From the IMG/VR virus record IMGVR_UViG_3300048780_000146, positions 1-31,549 of that record: a DNA stretch of 31,549 nucleotides, one strand, 5' to 3'. The stretch's first letter is position 1; every line of letters starts with the position of its first letter. Shown in pieces: positions 16,646-31,549 of this stretch. This DNA is from a virus. The notes under the pieces were generated by a model. The model saw only the letters and a list, made by a program, of their open reading frames with translations, was not told the DNA's origin and did no database searches. The position numbers were made by a program, and so were the translations under genes.

Positions 16646-17335
16646 CTACGGCGATACGGTTTGCAACAGCGATGAGACCTTTTGGCTCAAGTCGCCCTTG
16701 GCGTAGATGAGGTCGCACGAGCTGACGGCATCGATGGCCGCGAAGGTCAGATTCACTCCGCCATCCCAGTAGACTTGACCGGTCACGAGGGTCGCCGTGG
16801 GATCCATGACCAATTGCTTGACGCCCTTGGTGGTGCCGCCGGTCGCGTTGACCTGAAACAGACCATTCGGCGTCGGCGCCTGCGCGAGCACCGCCTTGTT
16901 GCTCGTGACGGTGACGCTCGTCTCGGTCGCACCGCCGAGCGTTCCGGCCAGAGCCGCCGCTGCCGCTGCCCGCAGAGCGAGATCGTCGACCCGCAAAGCA
17001 TTGACCTGCGCCACCAGGGCGGCTACGTCCGCGATCGTCTTGTTGTAGTCGACCTTGAGGGCATTCGCCAACGTGGCAATGCTCTGAACGTCGGCCTGGA
17101 CGTAGCTCGACGTCTGAGTAGCCGCGCTCGCCGTCGCCACAGTGGCACCGGTCTGGCTGACCGCGGCCCCCACGGTGGTGGCCGGAACAGTCGTCGAAGG
17201 ATTGCTCACATCGAGCAGGATCGCCAGCGCATCGCCCACGGGAGCCTGTGCCAAGGCGTCGGCGAACTTCCCGAGACTTGGCTCGTTCAGCTTGTCCCGC
17301 AGCGTGACCGGTTGGGTAGTCGTACTGGATGCCAT
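16646..17335 (-). CDS. Head decoration/fibre-like protein, long paralogue
   Basis: 229 residues; AAGGAG 5 bases before the ATG. It is a paralogue of the preceding gene (17345-17761). Both share the N-terminal part (DKLNEPSLGKFADALAQAPV) and the C-terminal domain (APTPNGLFQVNAT, GQVYWDGGVNLTFAA, SSLLQTVSP). This copy has about 90 extra residues in the middle, including a helical run (IADVAALVAQVNALRVDDLA) that could be a trimeric coiled coil. A surface fibre or decoration role is inferred from the position just before scaffold and capsid and from the stalk-like insertion; no known family was recognised. Confidence 0.7.
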   Translation of the reverse strand: MASSTTTQPVTLRDKLNEPSLGKFADALAQAPVGDALAILLDVSNPSTTVPATTVGAAVSQTGATVATASAATQTSSYVQADVQSIATLANALKVDYNKTIADVAALVAQVNALRVDDLALRAAAAAALAGTLGGATETSVTVTSNKAVLAQAPTPNGLFQVNATGGTTKGVKQLVMDPTATLVTGQVYWDGGVNLTFAAIDAVSSCDLIYAKGDLSQKVSSLLQTVSP

Positions 17336-22097: not shown

Positions 22098-22229
22098 GCT
22101 GCCTTGACCTTCTTAGCTTTACGCTTTCTTCTCTTACTAGCTTTGGAAATTGGCTTGGGCTTGTAGCGCAGCACCATGTCCACCATAGCCTCAAGAGCCT
22201 TTGGGACTTCGTTGGTTGTCTCAGGCATT
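22094..22229 (-). CDS. 44-residue protein with very basic C-terminus, between transposase and RM genes
   Basis: The start ATG lies inside the end of the transposase gene (9-base overlap) with GGAGG 9 bases upstream, and the TGA overlaps the GTG start of the RM gene (GTGA). It reads MPETTNEVPKALEAMVDMVL and then a Lys/Arg-rich tail (SKRRKRKAKKVKAA). The tail suggests nucleic acid binding; it might help control or fold the RM protein, or simply couple its translation. Too short for gene finders and probably often missed. Confidence 0.7.
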
Positions 22230-22817
22230 TGTCAGTGCCTCCAAAGTGAGTCGCTTGCCAGCCGAGCGACGGATAAGACTGTCAAGCCGTTGTGTGGTGT
22301 GGTTGCGGACATTGCCTTCGTTCAATCGGAATGAAAACTCGTTGACGTAGCGTGGGAGGTGCTTCGGAGTGACGTGATGGTACACGCCAAGAATGCCACG
22401 CTTCAACAGGGCGTTGAAACTTTCGATGCCGTTGGTGGTCACGTCGCCGCGTGCGAATTCGTGGGCGCTGTGGTTGATGCTCTCGTGTTTGAAGGCAGGT
22501 TCCAACCCGTTGTAGACCACGGCTTCGTCAGTGTGAAGCGTGGATCCCGCTTCAACATGTGCGCGGATCTCAGCGTGAATCGTTGCGCTGTCCACTGAGG
22601 CCACGGGGAATCCAACCGTGCGACCGCTTTCTCCGCGTTCACGCAGGGCCAGGACGGCGATCTTGCCTACTGCACCCCGGCCCTCGTGCGCGCGCTGAGA
22701 TAGGCCGCGGTCAAGACCGGCGTGGTGAGCCTGGATCGGACCGTTGCAGGCTCCGCTCGGCGCGCCGCACGGTCGCGTGCGGACCCAAGAAACGTACTCG
22801 CGATCTTCGCCGGACAT
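22221..22817 (-). pseudogene. Chimeric ORF: phage zinc/HNH-like N-terminus fused to C-terminal half of an ISXO2-type transposase
   Basis: 198 residues from the ATG at 22817, which overlaps the stop of the Mu F-like gene (TGATG), the true phage start. Residues 1-45 (EYVSWVRTRPCG, GPIQAHHAGLDRGLSQRAHE) match the opening of small phage HNH/DUF968-like proteins. From residue about 46 (GRGAVGKIAVLALRERG) it is an IS1595-family transposase with HTDE (D97), TTNGIESF (N129) and LLKRG (K139), the last three members of the D-D-N-K catalytic set. The first Asp domain and the DNA-binding part are missing, so it cannot transpose by itself. The rest of the phage gene is lost too. The frame remains open and coupled, so a fusion protein may be made. 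Confidence 0.8.
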
Positions 22818-23752
22818 CAGGCTGGAACTCGTCTCCCGCCGCGATAGCGCCAGCCAGGCGTTCCCCATTCCTTGCGCCAGGGCATCAGCGTCTCTCTTCC
22901 GTTGGGTCTCGCTGGTGGCACGGTCCACGTCTTTCCGACGAGCGAAGGAGAAACGTCGGTCTTTCCATCTGCACCGGGAAACGGTGCTGTCGCTGGCATG
23001 GTGAATTCCCCGCCTGGGTCTGCTACCTGGGAGTGCATCGCAATAGAATCAGTTCCGACCCGGTTGTCGAGTGGCTTGCCATCGGGCGCGCAGAACTCCA
23101 CCCACTGTGAATAGAGGTCGGGGTGTTCCTTCGCGATCTCCACAATGCCATCGCTGTGCGTTTTATTTACGCAGTACGACGTTTCAGTTCTGGCCACTCT
23201 CTCGGCCCTCCAGAATTCCCCCTTGTAGATGCCGTGCACGCGGTTGATGGCACCATCAAGCGTCTCGCCGCCCGCCATCGACAGCGCCATCTGGTCCTCG
23301 AACTGCCCGATCATTTGGACGCCGTACCGCTTGATGCTGGTCTGGTGCTGGCGCAGAAGCGTGGGCCGGCTCTTGTCGATCACGCGCGCGAACCTGGCGG
23401 CCTCCTCGATGGGCAGCACGAAGGACTGGCCGGTGAAGTGCTTCTCCAGCTTCGAGTAGCTGCGGATGAGCGTGTGCAAGGATTCGATCTGAGCTTCGCG
23501 GCTGGCGGCGGAAAGCTCGCCGAGCATCTGATCGTCGATATAGAGCTGGCCAGCCCGCAGTTGCGCGAGGGTCATGCGCAGGTGCTGGGCGGTGAACGTC
23601 GCCGAGCCCGTGCCGAGACGTTCGAGCTTGGCCAGCACCTCGGCGGATGCCTTCATGTAGACGGACCGCAGCCTCTCCACGGAGCCGCGTTCGACCACGC
23701 GGTCGAGCGTCTTGCGGTGACTGGCGATCACCTGTTCGTAGAGCGATGGCAT
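22817..23752 (-). CDS. Minor head protein, Mu gpF-like
   Basis: 311 residues. The N-terminal two thirds are helical. The family-typical block is FWRAERVARTETSYCVNKTH (about 180-200), followed by VEFCAPDGKPLDNRVGTDS and a Cys/His-containing end region. Mu F-like proteins (SPP1 gp7 relatives) attach to the portal and enter the capsid in a few copies, in some phages carrying effector domains. It lies downstream of portal and HNH genes, as usual. No good ribosome site precedes the ATG; it overlaps the end of the AP2-like gene by 25 bases, so coupling is likely. The C-terminus appears intact: its stop overlaps the next phage start. Confidence 0.8.
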   Translation of the reverse strand: MPSLYEQVIASHRKTLDRVVERGSVERLRSVYMKASAEVLAKLERLGTGSATFTAQHLRMTLAQLRAGQLYIDDQMLGELSAASREAQIESLHTLIRSYSKLEKHFTGQSFVLPIEEAARFARVIDKSRPTLLRQHQTSIKRYGVQMIGQFEDQMALSMAGGETLDGAINRVHGIYKGEFWRAERVARTETSYCVNKTHSDGIVEIAKEHPDLYSQWVEFCAPDGKPLDNRVGTDSIAMHSQVADPGGEFTMPATAPFPGADGKTDVSPSLVGKTWTVPPARPNGRETLMPWRKEWGTPGWRYRGGRRVPA

Positions 23753-23880
23753 CGCGAGGTGTGGAAGTTATGACAGATCTGTGCCTGCCATTTATTGTCG
23801 TGTCTCTTCCAATACACTCCGTACGGACGCTTCGGGGCTTCGGCGAGAACGATCCATCTCCCGAAGCGCTGCCCGATCAA
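23728..23880 (-). CDS. Tiny AP2-like / homing-endonuclease-type DNA-binding protein, probably truncated
   Basis: About 50 residues from a TTG at 23880, which overlaps the HNH gene stop (TTGA) and has GAGG 6 bases upstream. It opens with IGQRFGRWIVLAEAPKRP, like the start of many phage HNH/NUMOD4 endonucleases, and continues YGVYWKRHDNKWQAQI, the conserved GVxWxxxxxKWxAxI core of AP2 DNA-binding domains. It ends 15 residues later, so the second half of AP2 is absent. Probably a decayed or minimal DNA-binding unit left from a homing endonuclease. A longer ORF from an upstream Met would overlap the HNH gene and lacks support. Confidence 0.5.
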   Translation of the reverse strand: MIGQRFGRWIVLAEAPKRPYGVYWKRHDNKWQAQICHNFHTSRCHRSTNR

Positions 23881-24335
23881 TTTCCACCTCGCATCGGCTC
23901 TGGTTTTTCTCCATCGTCGATCTCCCTCTCCCGTTGGTGGCACACGTCGTGACATCGCTTGCACAGCACGTGGAGCGCATCGATCTTACTGACGTGGCCG
24001 AGCTTGATCGCGCGCTTCAGATCTTTCCGCTTGCGAGCCCTCGGATCTGCGGCGATCTCCTTGGCGTGCCCACTCACATGATCGAGATCTAAATCCTTCT
24101 TCGGCGTCGGGCAGTCCTCGTTGGAACATTTCCACCCCCCCTTTCTGAATACCCCCAACGCGAGCGACGGTCGCAGCCCGCCCTCGCCGTCGCTCTTCAG
24201 CGTCGCGCCCGCAGCCTTCGCTTCGCGCCGAATCTTCTTCAGTGCCAGCCTTTCCTGCGCGTTCCACTTGGGCTTGTCGTGATCCTGCTGTGGCTTCTGT
24301 TTGGTCTGGGCGTAGTCGACTGCGGTTTTGGACAT
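23877..24335 (-). CDS. HNH endonuclease
   Basis: 152 residues. A basic, helical N-terminus (about 1-60) is followed by a zinc-bound HNH module: C70 and C75 (WKCSNEDC), the DLDLDHVSGH strand with catalytic D85-H86, then C125 and C128 (LHVLCKRCHDVCH). Phages often have such a nuclease near portal and terminase, where it can assist packaging cleavage; free-standing homing activity is the alternative. It starts 9 bases after the CxxC protein gene and couples to the AP2-like gene. Confidence 0.8.
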   Translation of the reverse strand: MSKTAVDYAQTKQKPQQDHDKPKWNAQERLALKKIRREAKAAGATLKSDGEGGLRPSLALGVFRKGGWKCSNEDCPTPKKDLDLDHVSGHAKEIAADPRARKRKDLKRAIKLGHVSKIDALHVLCKRCHDVCHQREREIDDGEKPEPMRGGN

Positions 24336-24344
24336 GACGGCAGT

Positions 24345-24776
24345 CTACTCCGTGGTGACGATTCCCGGAACCTGCCCGAACGGCCGTCTTTCGTCCGGTC
24401 CCATCCGCACTTCGGTCACGACTTTGCTCGGCGCATCCGCGGCCCATTCCTCCATGGTCTTCCGGCAGTACACGCAGAAAAACATCACCGGCATCGGCAC
24501 GTACTTCTTGGGCTCGCCGCAGACATTGAACTCGACGTAGGGGATGCTTCCCTGGTGCTGGAGCGCCATCCTCACCGCGAGAGCCGGCTGGTCGTGCTCG
24601 AGTTCATCGGCCGGCCAAAACATGTTGAGCGTGCCGATCGCATGGCTGGTCTGGCAGTGCGTGCAGAGCCGGCCGCCCAGCACCTGCTCGCGCCAGACGT
24701 CGCGGGCGGTACGCAACCCGCCCCATGCTTTCTTGGTGAATCCGGGGGCTACCTTCGAGCGTGATGCGCGTCCCAT
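24345..24776 (-). CDS. CxxC-containing (zinc-binding) protein, unknown function
   Basis: 143 residues. A pair of knuckles, CTHC (about 38-41) and CVYC (about 101-104), could bind one zinc. The N-terminal 30 residues are basic (GRASRSKVAPGFTKKAWGGL). Between the knuckles are strand-like segments. ATG with AGGA 9 bases upstream. The position between a membrane protein and an HNH gene gives no specific role. No family recognised. Confidence 0.65.
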   Translation of the reverse strand: MGRASRSKVAPGFTKKAWGGLRTARDVWREQVLGGRLCTHCQTSHAIGTLNMFWPADELEHDQPALAVRMALQHQGSIPYVEFNVCGEPKKYVPMPVMFFCVYCRKTMEEWAADAPSKVVTEVRMGPDERRPFGQVPGIVTTE

Positions 24777-24785
24777 GGTGACTTC

Positions 24786-25067
24786 CTACTCTCCCTTGTC
24801 GGCCAAGTCTTTGAGGCAAAGCGCGTGCGCTTCTTCCAGGCAGTCGCGAGGAGGACGTCCTTGCGTTACGCAGGATTTTATGTGGACGTGAGCCGCTACG
24901 GTCGACAAGCAGTTTTCTGCTGTGGACGGGCCTTGGTAGCGCGTGGTTATGATGTTCGACAATAAAAAATACGTCCCGACTGTTATGCTCGTCCACGCCA
25001 GGATCCACAACGGACCGATCAGATTGCTAATGACCTTCGTCATGCGGTCGGCTCTTTCGTTGTCCAC
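24786..25067 (-). CDS. Single-pass membrane protein with Cys-rich C-terminal part
   Basis: 93 residues from a GTG with GAGGAG at 6-base spacing; an ATG at 25043 is a less supported alternative. One membrane helix (LIGPLWILAWTSITVGTYF, about 16-36) follows a short charged N-terminus. The rest has four Cys (ENCLSTVAAHVHIKSC, then DCLEEAHALC), probably two disulfides, so that part would sit in the periplasm. The size would allow a spanin- or holin-like role, or superinfection exclusion at the membrane; the sequence does not choose. Confidence 0.65.
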   Translation of the reverse strand: MDNERADRMTKVISNLIGPLWILAWTSITVGTYFLLSNIITTRYQGPSTAENCLSTVAAHVHIKSCVTQGRPPRDCLEEAHALCLKDLADKGE

Positions 25068-25069
25068 GC

Positions 25070-26326
25070 TTAGCTCCTCTCGGCAAGCGATTCGGCATCC
25101 ACCCTGGATATCCTAGAGATAATATCTGGCACGTCAATGGGGATTCCCAGCGCCTGCCGGACAAGTTGCCCCGAGTACGCTTCACGCCACTCCTTCGGGA
25201 CTCCGACCTCGTAATTGGTTGGCCACCCGGTGAGCACCTCGCGCGCGATGCGGTCGACGTACTCAAGCTTGCGGCGGGCGCCGGCGCGCAGGCCCGAGAC
25301 GTCGAACTCCGTATCGAGCCACGCCGCGAAGGCCTCCGCCCACGACTCATCTGCGTGCTTCATAGCGTAGTGCGGCCCGCTGTCCTGCACGTACTCGACA
25401 AAGTCTTCCGCGGGCAGGATGGGCCACGACCCGGTCGTCTTCGGGTATGGTTGCTCGAAGTCGCCAAACGTCGCGGTCCAGTCTGGACGCTTCCAGAGCT
25501 CGAAGCTGTAGTTGACCGCGTGGCCGACCTCGTGCCGGACCCCGCGCGCGACGTCTTCCCACCGCATCGGGTAGCGCGCCTGCGCTAGCTCGTATAACTC
25601 GGGCGTCGCGAGAAACCAGGGCAGATTGATCGTGATCGCCCGGTCGGCGCACCAGAAGCCGGAGTCCCCCAGCGCGAAGATGGGCTCGTAGTGCACGATC
25701 CCGTCGGCGCGCAGCTCGCCCCGAACCTTGTCGAGTATTCCCTTGAGCTGGCCGGTCGGAACGAGATTGAGGCGCGCCACTGGCGTGTCGAGCAGTGCCG
25801 GCAGGGGGTCGTCGAACAGCGGCTCGGTCTCGCCGTACTGCCTGGCAATCCTCGCCCAGGTCGCAGGGCCGCGCATGGTGGCGCCGCGATCATCAACGAA
25901 CAAATCGCACGCGGGCTTGCCGCCAAGGCCGTCGTCGATGGCATCGAACACGCTCGGCAGCTCGCGGTTGACGAACTCCACCATCTGTTCGTAGCGCGCG
26001 CGGTGCAGATGACGAGAGGTCAACCACTCTTTCCGGTTGCTGGGCACGGCGCCTGCGCGGACAAGCGGATCTAAGTCAGGGTCGTACAGCAAGGAACGGC
26101 TCGATCGTCCCGACCACAAGATCAGAAGATGGCCAGCTCTGCGGAGGGATACCAGCGCTTCCTTCGCCCCGTCGACGAACTCCAACGGCGTGACGACGTC
26201 CTCATAGGGTCGGTCTTGCTTGACGATGGTGCCGTCAAAATCAACACAGATTCGCACTGACGCCCTTGGTGGTGCCGCCGGTCGCGCCTGCTCTTCCGAG
26301 ATATGCGTGCACCCTTTGAGCTTCAT
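25070..26326 (-). CDS. Fusion of HAD phosphatase-like domain and HExxH metallopeptidase-like domain
   Basis: 418 residues. N-terminal HAD-type domain: RICVDFDGTIV with DFDGT at 29-33 (nucleophile D29 and D31), LILWSGRSS at 68-76, and DLFVDDRG at 141-148 as the acidic loop. C-terminal domain: VRHEVGHAVNYSFELW with the zinc motif HEVGH at 265-269, and ADESWAEAFAAWLDTEF at about 326-341, whose E331 may be the third ligand, as in gluzincin-like peptidases. Known HAD enzymes of this type dephosphorylate nucleotides or polynucleotide ends. The gene follows the portal by 12 bases, where head maturation proteases often lie, so the zincin half might process head proteins. The combination is not one I know. 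The ribosome site is weak. Confidence 0.7.
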   Translation of the reverse strand: MKLKGCTHISEEQARPAAPPRASVRICVDFDGTIVKQDRPYEDVVTPLEFVDGAKEALVSLRRAGHLLILWSGRSSRSLLYDPDLDPLVRAGAVPSNRKEWLTSRHLHRARYEQMVEFVNRELPSVFDAIDDGLGGKPACDLFVDDRGATMRGPATWARIARQYGETEPLFDDPLPALLDTPVARLNLVPTGQLKGILDKVRGELRADGIVHYEPIFALGDSGFWCADRAITINLPWFLATPELYELAQARYPMRWEDVARGVRHEVGHAVNYSFELWKRPDWTATFGDFEQPYPKTTGSWPILPAEDFVEYVQDSGPHYAMKHADESWAEAFAAWLDTEFDVSGLRAGARRKLEYVDRIAREVLTGWPTNYEVGVPKEWREAYSGQLVRQALGIPIDVPDIISRISRVDAESLAERS

Positions 26327-26338
26327 CCCGGCGCATGA

Positions 26339-28024
26339 TTACCTGCCCTCATTTAGCTCGGTAAGCGACTTCGCCGCCAGGTCATCTTCCGGCGCGGGCT
26401 CTTTCTTCAACTCCTCGACTTCTTTCTGCGGGTTCTCGATCGAAAAGTCCGCCGCGAGATTGCGGACGCCCGTGTCCAGCGTGATCAGCCGCCCTGCGCG
26501 CGCCTGCACGGTGGCCGTGACTTTCTGGCCGGTCTCCTGCGGAGTCGGTCGCGAGAACGGCGGCCACACCAGCTTCAGTTGAGCGCCCTTGACGTTGGCC
26601 AGCTTGTGCTCGACCAGCTTATCACCCTGCACCTTGGGCGGTACGAAGATGGACTCACGTACGTTCGTGCCGGGCAAGATCGGGTTTCCGCCCTCGTCGG
26701 TTTCGCCGGGCACCGCCGGCCGCCCACGGTCGAGCTTGTGCGCGACTCGCAGGAGCATCTCCATGAGCAGCACCACCCCGCGCTGTCCGTACTGCGTGCG
26801 CAACATGGACGCCTTTGCGAACATCGATGACGTGCGCTTCGTGATCTCGGTGGCGGTCATGGGAGCGCCGTCGGTCGACCGCTGGTCTGCCAGCACGCAC
26901 TCGCAGATCTGCAGCGCCTTGTCTTCGAGTCGATCTGATTCTTTGGCCGCGGCTTCCGTGGCCGCGCCGCTGGTTTCCGCGAAAACCAGCGTTCCGCCCT
27001 TCTCGAGCTTGATCGCGGACTTGCTCCCCATTCCGACCTTCGTCAGGCTCGCGTCGCTCGAGATTACCGGCGTCGGGTCGGCATTCCGGAACGCGCCCCC
27101 GTGGATCGCGCTGTCCAGCTCGCCGATGCGGTCGAAATAGTCGTAGGCCCCGAGACAATCGGGGTCGCCGTCCAAGTCGTCCGAGACCTCGATATTTGGG
27201 ATCCACCGGTACGGCACCTCTCCGAAGTTGTGCTCGCGCATCTCTTCGACTGTCTCCGGGTCGTCCCACTTGGGCTCGCTGCTGCCGTCGCCTACCGGCT
27301 GGGGCTTCCACACGCAGTCGGTCGTGGTATCGATGATCCGCAAATACCAGTAGTTCTCTTCCTTCCACTGGCCGGTGTCGGCGTCCCGAACTTCCTTTGG
27401 GTACATGTAGCGGATTTCAAGCTTGATCAACTCGCTCGGGTTCGTTGGGTCGAACGTGGGGAAGCACCATCGCCGGTCGAGCGATTCGAACACGACCTTT
27501 CCGCCGATCAGTTTGAAGCCGCCCACCGCAGTCCCCATGGCTCCGCCCATGTTGCGCGCGAGCAGCATCGCGGACCACAACCCATATGCGTCCGTTACCG
27601 CCTGCACCCAACCCTCAGTGTCGGGGTCGCCCGGAACTTTCCAGGTCGGCGACGCCTGCTCGCCGAACAGCAGTCCGGTGAAGCGCGATACCACCAGGTG
27701 ACACAGGTGACAGGGCACGCTCGGGCGGCGGTACCGCATCGGCAGCGCTTCGAGCTCGCCGAATGTGTCCTGGTATCCCGGCGGGAGAGCGGCCGACGAG
27801 ACGATACTCGCACGCGTGACGTTATCTGCGTTCTGGCTCCCGTCCCAGTTCGTCGCGCAGTCATCGTGCTGCGCGGTCCGGAAATAGCTGTAGAGGCGGT
27901 TCAGCTCGAGCTGGCGCGGGCTGAGCCCGAGCCGACGGATCTTATCTGAGACCAGGTTCGAGTCGGCCGCTGCTCCGACGACTTGAGGGCCGGCGTTGAT
28001 GTCGCGAGAAATTCCGCTGCTCAT
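26339..28024 (-). CDS. Portal protein
   Basis: 561 residues, directly after the large terminase. Portal-like features: an N-terminal helix-rich entry (LGLSPRQLELNRLYSYFRT), a domain with strands (GAMGTAVGGFKLIGGKVVFE, RRWCFPTFDPTNP), the EVPYRWIPNIEVSDDLDGDP segment followed by YDYFDRIGELDSAIHG that fits the clip/stem region, and a C-terminal helical region (QKEVEELKKEPAPED). A dodecamer would form the vertex channel for DNA packaging. Length is usual for portals of contractile phages. Position after TerL is the main support, joined to the helical patterns. Confidence 0.82.
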   Translation of the reverse strand: MSSGISRDINAGPQVVGAAADSNLVSDKIRRLGLSPRQLELNRLYSYFRTAQHDDCATNWDGSQNADNVTRASIVSSAALPPGYQDTFGELEALPMRYRRPSVPCHLCHLVVSRFTGLLFGEQASPTWKVPGDPDTEGWVQAVTDAYGLWSAMLLARNMGGAMGTAVGGFKLIGGKVVFESLDRRWCFPTFDPTNPSELIKLEIRYMYPKEVRDADTGQWKEENYWYLRIIDTTTDCVWKPQPVGDGSSEPKWDDPETVEEMREHNFGEVPYRWIPNIEVSDDLDGDPDCLGAYDYFDRIGELDSAIHGGAFRNADPTPVISSDASLTKVGMGSKSAIKLEKGGTLVFAETSGAATEAAAKESDRLEDKALQICECVLADQRSTDGAPMTATEITKRTSSMFAKASMLRTQYGQRGVVLLMEMLLRVAHKLDRGRPAVPGETDEGGNPILPGTNVRESIFVPPKVQGDKLVEHKLANVKGAQLKLVWPPFSRPTPQETGQKVTATVQARAGRLITLDTGVRNLAADFSIENPQKEVEELKKEPAPEDDLAAKSLTELNEGR

Positions 28025-28035
28025 GGGGGGCCATC

Positions 28036-29526
28036 CTACCAGTTAGAGAGGTTGAGGTATACCGAGCCGACTTCCGGCTTGGGTTCGACTCTGCCGAGAC
28101 GCTCGCCTTCCTTGGCGAACCACGAGGCCATGAGGCGATCTCCGGCGTGCGCGTCGGGGTGATAGCTCAGCATCTCGCCCACCCACTCCTCGATCTCGGG
28201 ATGCGAGCGCCCGCCCTGGCTCGGGATGATCCACTTGGGCGGCCGGCACGCCATCTCAATCCCCATGGCCTCGACTCCGAACGAGGCGTCAGCCTTGTTT
28301 TTGCCGGTGGTGAATGGGACGATGGGGATTGAGGTGTTGTTCTGGAGAATCTGAACCAGAAATTGCTGGGCAGCCACGTTCTCGATCGCGAACACGCAGT
28401 GGAACCGCTCGTACAGGTCCACGACCTTGGCCATGATGTCGGTGGCGACCCAGCGACCCGACTCGACCCATAGCACTTCGCGGTCGCCGTTCGGGTGGAC
28501 GAAGATCACGAAGAAGACCGTCAGGTCGTTGTTTGCCTTCAGCCCCACGCCGAGGTCGACGCCACAGTAGACCTTGCACCCAGTCGGGACCGCCCGCAGC
28601 GCGTACACCATGCTTTTGCCTTCGCCGCGGGCTTTGCATGCGTCGAGCCATTCGCGCTTGAATCGAGAAGTCGAGTCGTCGGTGGCCTGGCACATGAGCT
28701 GAGACTGAAACTCGATGGGTCCGATCTCCTGGCGTCGTTTCTCGATGCGCGCGAGAGACCACACCTCGGGCCAAGCGCTCTGACCGTCCTTCGACAAGAT
28801 CGGGTACTTGAACGCGTGCCATCGCGGGTTGCGAGCCATCGTGTGTAGCAGGTCTTGCGGGTGAAATGCGTTCCCGATCGCGAGAATGCGCCCGCGCGCG
28901 GTCATACGGCCGGGAATCGTCTTGAGATACCAGTCGAGCACGCCGGCCCGCATGTATTCGGTGCGGGTGTTCTCTCGGTTTAGAATGTCGTCCAAGATCG
29001 CCTCGTCGATGCGCGCGCCCTGCGTGTTGGACCCGACGCCCAGCGTGTTGACCGACGGATCTTTCGACATCGTCGATCGCTGGACCGTAAGCTGCTCGCT
29101 GTTCCACGGCATCGACGGGTCTGGCACTAAATCGGGAAACACCTCGTGCAAAGCTTCGCTCGACTCGATATAGCGGCCGATCAGGTTGGCGATCTTGGTC
29201 GCCATGGTCGACGTGTTGCTGACGATCGCGAACCGCAGCGTCGGGTCGCGCCCCAGCTTGTAGAGCGTTCGGGCCACGCTGAGGCTCAGGGTCTTTCCCG
29301 ACTCAACGAACGCCCACAGCACCAGCCGATCGTAGTTCTCCGCAATCTGAAACCAGCGATAATGCAGGGGTGCCAGGTCGATGGTTCTACCGGTCTCCTC
29401 GTTTCGCATCACGTACTGGACGAACGCGCGGAAGTCCGAGCGGGCCGCCGCGCACAACTTGGCTTCGGTGTGGCGCCGGGTGAAGTCCAGGACCTCGAGG
29501 TCTTTGCGTTCGACGGCGGCGGACAT
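28036..29526 (-). CDS. Terminase large subunit
   Basis: 496 residues from the ATG at 29526, overlapping the small subunit stop (TGATG). ATPase domain: Walker A-like WAFVESGKTLS (71-81), a deviant P-loop typical of terminases; Walker B-like EAILDDI (175-181). Nuclease domain: YCGVDLGVGLKANND with D324 as a likely metal ligand, then the FAIENVAAQQF region. The protein pumps DNA into the procapsid and cuts the concatemer. Portal follows 11 bases later. Confidence 0.9.
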   Translation of the reverse strand: MSAAVERKDLEVLDFTRRHTEAKLCAAARSDFRAFVQYVMRNEETGRTIDLAPLHYRWFQIAENYDRLVLWAFVESGKTLSLSVARTLYKLGRDPTLRFAIVSNTSTMATKIANLIGRYIESSEALHEVFPDLVPDPSMPWNSEQLTVQRSTMSKDPSVNTLGVGSNTQGARIDEAILDDILNRENTRTEYMRAGVLDWYLKTIPGRMTARGRILAIGNAFHPQDLLHTMARNPRWHAFKYPILSKDGQSAWPEVWSLARIEKRRQEIGPIEFQSQLMCQATDDSTSRFKREWLDACKARGEGKSMVYALRAVPTGCKVYCGVDLGVGLKANNDLTVFFVIFVHPNGDREVLWVESGRWVATDIMAKVVDLYERFHCVFAIENVAAQQFLVQILQNNTSIPIVPFTTGKNKADASFGVEAMGIEMACRPPKWIIPSQGGRSHPEIEEWVGEMLSYHPDAHAGDRLMASWFAKEGERLGRVEPKPEVGSVYLNLSNW

Positions 29527-30176
29527 CAAGAGCCTCGTCGAATCATCCCCGCATTGGGTCCCGTTGTAGTCGGCGCGCCTGGCTGTGGTGTCGGCGCCTG
29601 CCCGACAGACAGCGCCCCCATTGAGGCACCGTGGGGAGTCGGAGCCTCTGATGTGCTTGGCTCGGGCAATTCCTGAGCGCTCACATCGATCTCGCTAAAC
29701 GCCTGCGGAGCCGTAGATAGAGCTGCATCGTGATCGAGGATCTGTTTCGCTATTCGAGCGGCTCTCAGGAATCGCTGGGCCATCTCCTCAGCCGATAGCG
29801 TCTCCTGGCGGGTCACGGTCGTCAGAGGTCCGCCGCCTTCTCCCATCACTTCGAGCTGCACGCGCGCCTTGCCCGCGTACTGCTCGATCAGCGTCTTGCG
29901 TGCCAAGTCGCTCTTGCCCATGCCGGCCAGCCACTCACGGTGGAGTAGCCCGCGGATGCGCGTACCACCGGAGCATCCGACCTTCGCGAGCAGCGCCTTG
30001 CCCATGTCGGTGTCGTCTGTCTCTTCGAGGAACTTCGCCACCGTCTCGGCGCGCGTGCGGCCGTTGAACCCGGTCTTGTTTTTGCCAGGTTCACCCGCGC
30101 GAGCCGGGCGCAGATTCGCCAGGCTATTTGGGTGGGTCCCGCGCTTGCTGGGCGGGAAGGGGGAGTCGTCAGCCAT
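29526..30176 (-). CDS. Terminase small subunit / DUF5681-like DNA-binding protein
   Basis: 216 residues just before the large terminase. The opening has the pattern seen in many phage terminase small or DUF5681 proteins: GTHPNSLANLRPARAGEPGK then NKTGFNGRTRAETVAKFL. A helical central part (MGKSDLARKTLIEQYAGKAR, about 86-105) fits oligomerisation or DNA binding. The C-terminal 60 residues are Pro/Ala/Ser-rich and disordered. It would recognise the phage packaging site. It overlaps the radical SAM gene by 8 bases. The call relies on position as well as sequence. Confidence 0.72.
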   Translation of the reverse strand: MADDSPFPPSKRGTHPNSLANLRPARAGEPGKNKTGFNGRTRAETVAKFLEETDDTDMGKALLAKVGCSGGTRIRGLLHREWLAGMGKSDLARKTLIEQYAGKARVQLEVMGEGGGPLTTVTRQETLSAEEMAQRFLRAARIAKQILDHDAALSTAPQAFSEIDVSAQELPEPSTSEAPTPHGASMGALSVGQAPTPQPGAPTTTGPNAGMIRRGS

Positions 30177-31467
30177 CGGCGCGCCTTCTCATATCTCGCG
30201 CGATCTCTCTCAATCTCGCGCGCGGCGTGAAACTCGTCAGGAAGTCAGCCGGGTGCGGTTCGTCGATGTCGTATTTCCGCAAGTACGGCGCCAAGTCGAA
30301 GTGTGTGGAAACTCTGCGCACCTTATCCGCCGATGGGTTGGATTGAAGCTTGGGAGCAAAGCATATCGCTTCCCATAGTTTGTCCGTGCCAGGCGTCGCT
30401 CGCTCGGCGACTACGGTCACCAGGTGCGACCAAGGCCCTTCGTTGCTGAAACTGTGCATGGCTCGCAGGTTTGGACGGTCAACAATTACCTGCGCAGAAA
30501 GCTCAGACATCGACGGCATGAGCCGCACTGGCTCCCATTGCATTGGGGTCAAATTGGATGGCCTGAATGGTGTTGATTGCAGGACCACGATGACCCTCCC
30601 GCGCGGTTGAGCTGAAGCGAACGTGCCATACAGCTCATCCTTGTCCGCTTGGTTTTCAGTCGGCATGTTGCTGATGTTGTAGGCGAGCACCGTGCTTGTG
30701 CCGCCGAAGCTGCCCACTCTCTCAAGGCCTTCCACAACGTCATGACCTGTGATGTTTTTGCCGTAGCATCGGCGTAGTCGAGCCGAGAACCCATCAAGGG
30801 CAGTGCGAATTCTCCCGTGTTTGTGGTCAATGCCACGCAACCTGTCCCATGTGATCTCGGGGGACGATGTGGAGACCGACGTCTGCACGTAGTCCCCAGC
30901 TGGCCCTCTGTACTGGCGTGCCCATGAGTAGTGGCAAAACTTGCACTTACGCTTGCACCCCATGAATCCCTCAGCACGGCCATTTATGGCATGTGGGTAC
31001 AGCTCCGACTGTCCAAGCGTAACGGGTGTGATATCGGGAAGGTTCATCACGGACGGATGAACGAAGGGTTGACGGTCAAGCGCCGCTTGCACGAGGTCCA
31101 CAGCGAAAAATTCAGATCTCCCAAACGCCGCATAGTCCACAAGATGGCGCACAACTGTCGGATTCTGCATCCCGGCGCCGCCGGCGACTACGCGGAAAGG
31201 ACGCCTTTCGGCTTTCCATGACGGCATCCTGCCCACCGCCTGTGTGAGCGCCAGCAAGTCATAGGTTGAGGTCATCGACACCAGCACCACCTGATGCTCG
31301 CGCGCAGACTCTGGCGAGCAGTACCCGACCTCGATTCCAGAACGGCGAAGGACATCGGCGATCACCTCGACGCCAAGGTTGCCAAGCCCGTCAAACGACT
31401 CATCTTCGCTACGTTTCTTGGCGGCCTGATAGACGAGAATGGCGACCTCTGGGCTATTTGTCGACAT
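30169..31467 (-). CDS. Radical SAM protein with cobalamin-binding-like N-terminal domain
   Basis: 432 residues from ATG 31467; a GTG at 31479 is also possible. Residues about 1-135 look like a B12-binding-type Rossmann domain (VVLVSMTSTYDLLAL, FRVVAGGAGMQNPTVVRHLV, then DYAAFGRSE), as in B12-binding radical SAM enzymes, but no DxHxxG cobalamin-ligand motif was seen. The radical SAM site is GFMGCKRKCKFCHYSW with C171-x3-C175-x2-C178 binding a 4Fe-4S cluster. The rest is the barrel. Such enzymes perform methylations, methylthiolations and rearrangements. It overlaps the terminase small gene by 8 bases and so is co-translated with packaging genes; a role in modifying phage DNA, RNA or protein is inference. 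Confidence 0.82.
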   Translation of the reverse strand: MSTNSPEVAILVYQAAKKRSEDESFDGLGNLGVEVIADVLRRSGIEVGYCSPESAREHQVVLVSMTSTYDLLALTQAVGRMPSWKAERRPFRVVAGGAGMQNPTVVRHLVDYAAFGRSEFFAVDLVQAALDRQPFVHPSVMNLPDITPVTLGQSELYPHAINGRAEGFMGCKRKCKFCHYSWARQYRGPAGDYVQTSVSTSSPEITWDRLRGIDHKHGRIRTALDGFSARLRRCYGKNITGHDVVEGLERVGSFGGTSTVLAYNISNMPTENQADKDELYGTFASAQPRGRVIVVLQSTPFRPSNLTPMQWEPVRLMPSMSELSAQVIVDRPNLRAMHSFSNEGPWSHLVTVVAERATPGTDKLWEAICFAPKLQSNPSADKVRRVSTHFDLAPYLRKYDIDEPHPADFLTSFTPRARLREIARDMRRRADG

Positions 31468-31549
31468 AGCGAAACCCACACTTCGGGCACGTTGACAGCT
31501 CGTTGGATGTCGAATCCTCGCCGGTCAGCTTGCCAAGCTCATCGTCATT
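31454..31549 (-). CDS. Partial CDS ending in a zinc-ribbon-like motif
   Basis: The 3' end of a gene entering from the right edge. The last 31 codons include TCPKCGFRYVDK, half of a zinc ribbon (CxxC), after an acidic stretch. It overlaps the start of the radical SAM gene by 14 bases, so both are in one operon. Its function cannot be told from this piece. Confidence 0.6.
   Translation of the reverse strand, partial: NDDELGKLTGEDSTSNELSTCPKCGFRYVDK

Follow-up and report, generated by a model that had tools for sequence, protein, structure and literature searches.

A probable DNA-modification cassette of a radical SAM protein and a ParB-domain protein ahead of phage terminase genes

We analyzed a complete virus record of the IMG/VR type (31,549 bp, hereafter the window) in which a gene for a radical SAM protein (rSAM) lies between a ParB-domain gene and the genes for DNA packaging (Table 1). 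We conclude that rSAM probably supplies the enzyme of a DNA-modification cassette of two genes, in which the ParB-domain protein is the other component; the cassette stands just before the packaging genes and would serve in anti-restriction. We observed the structure of the gene, its ParB partner, its packaging position, its family, its predicted fold, and the exchange of the cassette within one phage. The slot itself is a standard one for modification; what is new is the class of enzyme in it.

Table 1. Features of the window at and around the radical SAM gene, in order of position
Feature	Position	Strand	Details
Portal protein	26339..28024	-	PF13264 5.3e-6; phrog_145 1.1e-10
TerL	28036..29529	-	phrog_38 3e-66; NF033889 6.6e-30
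Putative TerS	29526..30176	-	called by position; 51% identical counterpart in L002
Radical SAM protein (rSAM), probably B12-binding type	30169..31467	-	432 aa; ATG 31467 to TGA 30169; alternative start GTG 31479
Exchange point	30354..30355		beyond it, L004-L006 have ATPase-GNAT and ASCH genes replacing most of rSAM
3' end of ParB-domain gene	31454..31549	-	ends in ...STCPKCGFRYVDK and stop; N-terminus beyond contig end; full-length homologue L002:901-1473

On the minus strand, the genes run in the order ParB-domain gene, rSAM, putative TerS, TerL, portal. An initial annotation had placed the rSAM open reading frame at 30169-31467, and these coordinates are exact, with the open-reading-frame listing extending the frame to GTG 31479. 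The CxxxCxxC motif that it reported is present as GCKRKCKFC, with native cysteines at 171, 175, and 178 (170/174/177 in alignment numbering); residue numbers in this text, such as S63 and R231, follow a 431-residue translation without Met1, and native numbers are higher by one. The protein consists of a Rossmann-type N-domain, the CxxxCxxC motif, an rSAM barrel, and a C-terminal domain, in that order. The stop of rSAM overlaps the start of putative TerS (ATG 30176) by 8 nt (ATGGCTGA), again as first annotated, and the end of the ParB-domain gene overlaps the start of rSAM by 14 nt; overlaps of these lengths are as expected for translational coupling. Putative TerS had no match in Pfam, PHROG, or NCBIfam and is identified by its position and its L002 counterpart, and the identity of TerL is confirmed by phrog_38. 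The rSAM frame is not a chance one, since the protein is 80% identical over its full length to that of an independent phage (L002) and has homologues in 88 loci.

Searched alone, the window protein matched Radical_SAM (PF04055, 5.5e-4), B12-binding (Pfam, 0.011), and TIGR03960 (5.3e-6) weakly, in each case below the curated cut-off, and matched nothing in PHROGs. We collected homologues by searching viral contigs and GTDB genomes with a CxxKCxFCxYxW DNA pattern, followed by profile iteration. Counted among the 88 loci are the window itself and two duplicates, L001 and L078; five loci hold close relatives of the window protein. The invariance of C..KC.FC.Y.W in this set is largely by construction, because the DNA pattern required those residues; the invariance of GG, R231, P268, T306, P307, and R355 in the family is not. 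The best family member matches PF04055 at 6.1e-16, CxxxCxxC lies on the first loop of an rSAM barrel, and the fold matches are rSAM enzymes, all of which place the family in the radical SAM superfamily. Among 61 members, 57 match TIGR03960, 34 match TIGR04013, and 15 match TIGR04014, all of them B12-binding rSAM families, and five match the MiaB/RimO model. The window protein fails the curated equivalog cut-offs of TIGR03960 (25.2 versus 462.3 bits) and TIGR04014 (13.4 versus 360 bits), and because family scores all lie below such cut-offs, chemistry cannot be transferred. TIGR03960, the best NCBIfam family for those 57 members, comprises B12-binding radical SAM proteins that, to our knowledge, have no known function and that, unlike rSAM, occur outside a phage context.

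Among the records searched, the rSAM family is virus-borne and absent from cultured phages. Neither the window protein nor two further rSAM queries matched any of 50,697 phage records, and one rSAM query matched none of 72,556 plasmid records. In about 1,090 sampled genomes from three phyla, matches at E<=1e-25 occurred only in the three MAGs that had served as starting points, whose other matches were mostly distant, partial paralogs; the distant partial matches in cellular ORFs of 500-900 aa in these MAGs are probably TIGR03960-type proteins. One annotated relative in a viral structure library, from Siphoviridae sp. ctdcr45 (fold match 1.5e-22), is described only as an "Fe-S oxidoreductase."

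The initial annotation had claimed a B12-binding-type N-terminus, which is weak when judged from the single sequence and strong at the level of the family, where profiles, fold, and motifs agree. Using an AlphaFold2 model built with 61 sequences (pLDDT 92.1, pTM 0.91), we found that the top Foldseek match among solved structures was MgmA (9ccb, E 1.2e-9), followed by MiaB, OxsB, and RimO; the TM-scores of these matches, 0.28-0.46, indicate a common architecture and not close similarity. The family profile (A2) also finds MgmA by sequence (3.5e-8), across both the cobalamin domain and the barrel, and PF02310 (B12-binding) is matched by 19 of the 61 members at E<=0.01. The A2 profile, the Foldseek matches to MgmA and OxsB, and PF02310 together mark the N-terminal Rossmann domain as homologous to known cobalamin domains. 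A known motif of cobalamin Rossmann domains is S-x-L ... G-G, and the SxT and GG of the rSAM family sit at these positions (S63 in 55/61, T65 in 50/61, G95-G96 in 61/61), with 25-32 residues between SxT and GG, the spacing of cobalamin domains. DxHxxG was present in none of the 61 members; its absence is usual in B12-type rSAM proteins, and the prediction of cobalamin binding therefore draws on the fold and on SxT/GG. MgmA itself is without a lower axial ligand in place (PMC11796369). By profile, predicted fold, and motifs, the window protein is probably a B12-binding-type radical SAM protein.

MgmA (methyl-coenzyme M reductase glutamine C-methyltransferase, TIGR04014) resembles rSAM in joining a Rossmann B12 domain to an rSAM barrel and a C-terminal domain, and it is the best sequence-profile and fold match to the family; however, the two are only about 15% identical, with a TM-score of 0.46, and MgmA acts on a protein in methanogens. 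We also considered a methylthiotransferase of the MiaB/RimO type and rejected it, as the three auxiliary-cluster cysteines of the N-domain are missing. The family alignment contains no conserved cysteines outside CxxxCxxC, and the conservation of only three cluster cysteines argues against a methylthiotransferase or any other auxiliary cluster.

Of the 64 loci with at least 450 nt of upstream sequence, 55 have a ParB-domain gene directly upstream of rSAM and in the same orientation; the nine loci without one comprise the remnant L003 and those with the most divergent rSAMs. Because the ParB search was seeded with a single sequence (from L002), this association is not built in. The window holds only the last 31 codons and the stop (31454) of its ParB-domain gene, with the C-terminus CPKCGFRYVDK, and what had been described as a zinc ribbon end and possible partner is the C-terminus of this conserved upstream protein. 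The partner proteins match PF02195 (2.3e-9 in L022) and, also by fold, ParB/Noc CTPase-domain structures (7.9e-15), and they end in a CPKCGFEF-like tail. A ParB_N-domain protein adjoins the effector in these loci, the window itself having the ParB C-terminus only. The identity matrices of ParB and rSAM are correlated across 43 pairs (Mantel r 0.77, against at most 0.31 in 2000 permutations), a correlation that partly reflects shared ancestry of whole loci. A fused ParB-rSAM protein, which would be a direct link, was not found. We rejected the CPKCG tail as a hallmark of rSAM partners; it also occurs on ParB proteins adjoining C5 methylases.

Among the 57 rSAM loci with enough downstream sequence, large genes within 2.6 kb encode terminases of several unrelated families, at least four in number: by Pfam, GpA nuclease in 20 loci, HK97-type TerL nuclease in eight, Terminase_3 in five, and Terminase_6N in five (38/57 if mutually exclusive). 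Further terminases, the window's own TerL among them, were recognized by PHROG. The frequency may be inflated, because virus-contig collections favor terminase-bearing contigs, but the fixed position is not so explained. The gene recurs at this position in unrelated phages, contrary to the chance insertion that the initial annotation had named as an outcome against its proposal. Between the window and L002, rSAM is 80% and TerS 51% identical, with TerL and portal unrelated, so that the cassette must have been transferred together with TerS. In L003, a short ORF (L003:1308-1772) before TerS encodes only the C-terminal ~140 rSAM residues (84% identical); it may be left over from a further cassette exchange, or the C-terminal domain may be used on its own.

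An exchange of the cassette is visible within the same phage. Locus L004 matches the window at 100.000% identity across 8,183 bp (22172-30354); for L005 and L006 the identity is 99.9%, across 3.7 and 6.6 kb, respectively. Upstream of the switch at 30354, all three carry a ParB-like gene that lacks the CPKCG tail, a gene fusing an ABC ATPase to GNAT, and a gene with an ASCH domain (Pfam ASCH 0.0025), and they retain the last 61 rSAM codons as a relic. The window is not the chimera, because its rSAM is 80% identical to that of L002 across the junction. The swap leaves TerS, TerL, and portal unchanged, and in L004 TerS and TerL are unchanged to the base. Selection by host restriction would be expected to lead to such a replacement of one modification-type cassette by another in one phage. 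Similarly, a report on a Mu-like cryoconite phage describes methylases and an acetyltransferase exchanged in the packaging module: in a variable 2-kb island, DNA methylases are inserted, deleted, or swapped for an acetyltransferase between near-identical phages, and the passages on this island mention no radical SAM gene (PMC7468147). Upstream of the ATPase-GNAT/ASCH cassette, a TnpB-like ORF was recognized by eye in L005 (2368-3567, minus strand) and in L006 (133-1332, minus strand).

To identify the other occupants of this slot, we fetched 80 ParB loci by the ParB profile alone, regardless of radical SAM. Their 72 fused or adjacent effectors include 29 N6/N4 DNA methylases, nine TET-associated glycosyltransferases (TAGT), eight C5 DNA methylases, five Mom proteins, six DUF4417 proteins, and two ABC ATPases, so that DNA methylases, TET-associated glycosyltransferases, or Mom make up 51 of 72. 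Given the dominance of DNA modifiers, a ParB gene and an effector just before the terminase are a good sign of DNA modification. Cultured phages show the same arrangement, with ParB-methylase-TerS-TerL in EJ-1 and ParB-glycosyltransferase (annotated as a glucosyltransferase)-TerS-TerL in phi jlb1. The premise that a location in the packaging operon is odd for such an enzyme was therefore mistaken, ParB with a DNA-modifying enzyme before the terminase being common in cultured phages.

The ParB domain of EJ-1 ORF37 is about 50% identical to that of an rSAM partner (L022 query) and stands at the same place before TerS/TerL; the effector, however, is a fused N6/N4-type methylase rather than a separate radical SAM protein, and the fused ORFs examined are without the CP.CG motif. 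In phage PaBG, a ParB protein with a CPKC tail is followed by a cytosine methylase, an annotated tRNA methyltransferase, and an asparagine synthase, a gene set that fits CmoX-CmoA-CmoY of the 5-carboxymethylcytosine pathway, whose authors noted ParB neighbors of unknown role (PMC12783734). In both the Cmo system and PaBG, a ParB gene adjoins a DNA-modifying enzyme as in the rSAM loci, whereas the effector there is homologous to C5-cytosine methylases and uses carboxy-SAM, and no terminase lies beside the PaBG locus within the stretch read. We found no ParB and radical SAM DNA-modification system in the open-access literature searched, although a mention in a 2013 NAR survey or in a thymidine-hypermodification paper is possible.

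Under the explanation we favor, the ParB-domain protein would bind phage DNA, possibly by acting as a CTP-dependent clamp, and recruit the enzyme, and rSAM, with a [4Fe-4S] cluster and cobalamin, would add a group to a base or sugar of the replicated phage DNA, most likely a methyl group on an unreactive carbon. Co-expression with TerS/TerL would allow the DNA to be marked shortly before packaging, and the injected genome would thereby escape restriction in the next host. The earlier proposal of DNA modification or restriction protection tied to the packaging operon is thus upheld in part: the ParB partner, the DNA-modifying slot mates, and the swap within one phage speak for it, and its argument from an anomalous position falls away. 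The companion idea that the terminase recognizes a modified base fares poorly, given the unrelated terminase families beside the gene and the TerS and TerL left intact by the swap. That DNA is the substrate, with other radical chemistry included, is guilt by association from the slot mates and the swap, and we consider it very likely; for methyl transfer by B12 chemistry, the case for and against is evenly balanced.

A sub-case of this explanation in which the chemistry differs is possible, though we hold it only tentatively: the enzyme may be directed at DNA without being a C-methylase and may catalyze a rearrangement, a dehydrogenation, or the conversion of an already modified base. Phage thymidine hypermodification uses a radical SAM step, and some rSAM loci have a further DNA methylase within 2.6 kb (N6/N4, C5, and MT-A70, one each). 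However, in most loci the stretch examined contains no further modification gene, and the fold and profile neighbors are mainly B12-type proteins.

Against the DNA reading, the substrates of MgmA and of many B12-type rSAM enzymes are proteins or small molecules. The enzyme might instead modify a phage protein (TerS, TerL, portal, or capsid), its operon position reflecting its target, and MgmA, the nearest solved relative, is a protein C-methyltransferase; moreover, rSAM and TerS overlap and are inherited together between the window and L002. We nevertheless judge this unlikely, because the terminases adjoining the family are unrelated, the swap spares TerS, TerL, and portal, and the constant partner is a ParB-domain protein common to DNA-modifying enzymes. 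Modification of a head protein, also suggested earlier, is possible but favored by none of our findings.

It is more improbable still that the enzyme modifies tRNA or rRNA and derives from host TIGR03960/MiaB-like enzymes. Members do match TIGR03960, five match the MiaB/RimO model, and MiaB is among the fold matches; yet the family lacks the conserved cysteines of a methylthiotransferase auxiliary cluster, the ParB/packaging context is recurrent, and no ortholog was found in the roughly 1,090 genomes. Orthology to host tRNA-modification enzymes, which the initial annotation had named as the outcome that would overturn its proposal, was rejected, the homologues being phage genes. Least credible is a chance passenger (moron) with no tie to packaging or DNA: rSAM is replaceable within the same phage, but the order ParB-rSAM-(TerS)-TerL is kept across unrelated phages and the divergence of ParB and rSAM is correlated.

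If the DNA-modification explanation is true, B12/radical chemistry acts directly on phage DNA and marks carbons beyond the reach of ordinary methylases, leaving marks that nobody has looked for. The slot of a ParB gene and then an effector before terminases would also be a device for finding new DNA-modifying enzymes, for example DUF4417 and unassigned families, and it poses a question open to testing, namely the role of the ParB domain in this slot.

Several occupants of the slot bear on that search. The slot may accommodate more than a single kind of radical SAM enzyme: at L219:5553-6569 and L231:5138-5923 (Dulem virus 36), ParB genes are followed by other radical SAM proteins, which lack a B12-type N-domain and have their CxxxCxxC close to the N-terminus; one is annotated as PA0069 family, and one sits one gene away from ParB. 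A ParB domain is fused to DUF4417 at L197:4995-6023, and five other ParB loci also have DUF4417, which is a candidate DNA-modifying enzyme. Effectors of 250-310 aa follow ParB genes at L169:5423-6202, L182:5612-6391, L204:5465-6388, L149:5522-6280, L161:5534-6301, and L206:1533-2444; several are 25-47% identical to the L169 member, those tested have no Pfam match, and the group is a candidate for new modification enzymes. In L177, L178, L188, L212, and L170, a CPKCG-tailed ParB gene, a ~340-aa gene, and a second CPKCG-tailed ParB-like gene occur together; the middle gene of L177 is a C5 methylase, which is thus flanked by two ParB copies. Elsewhere in the window, a perfect 29-bp direct repeat lies at 16819-16847 and 26258-26286, in two different structural-region ORFs.
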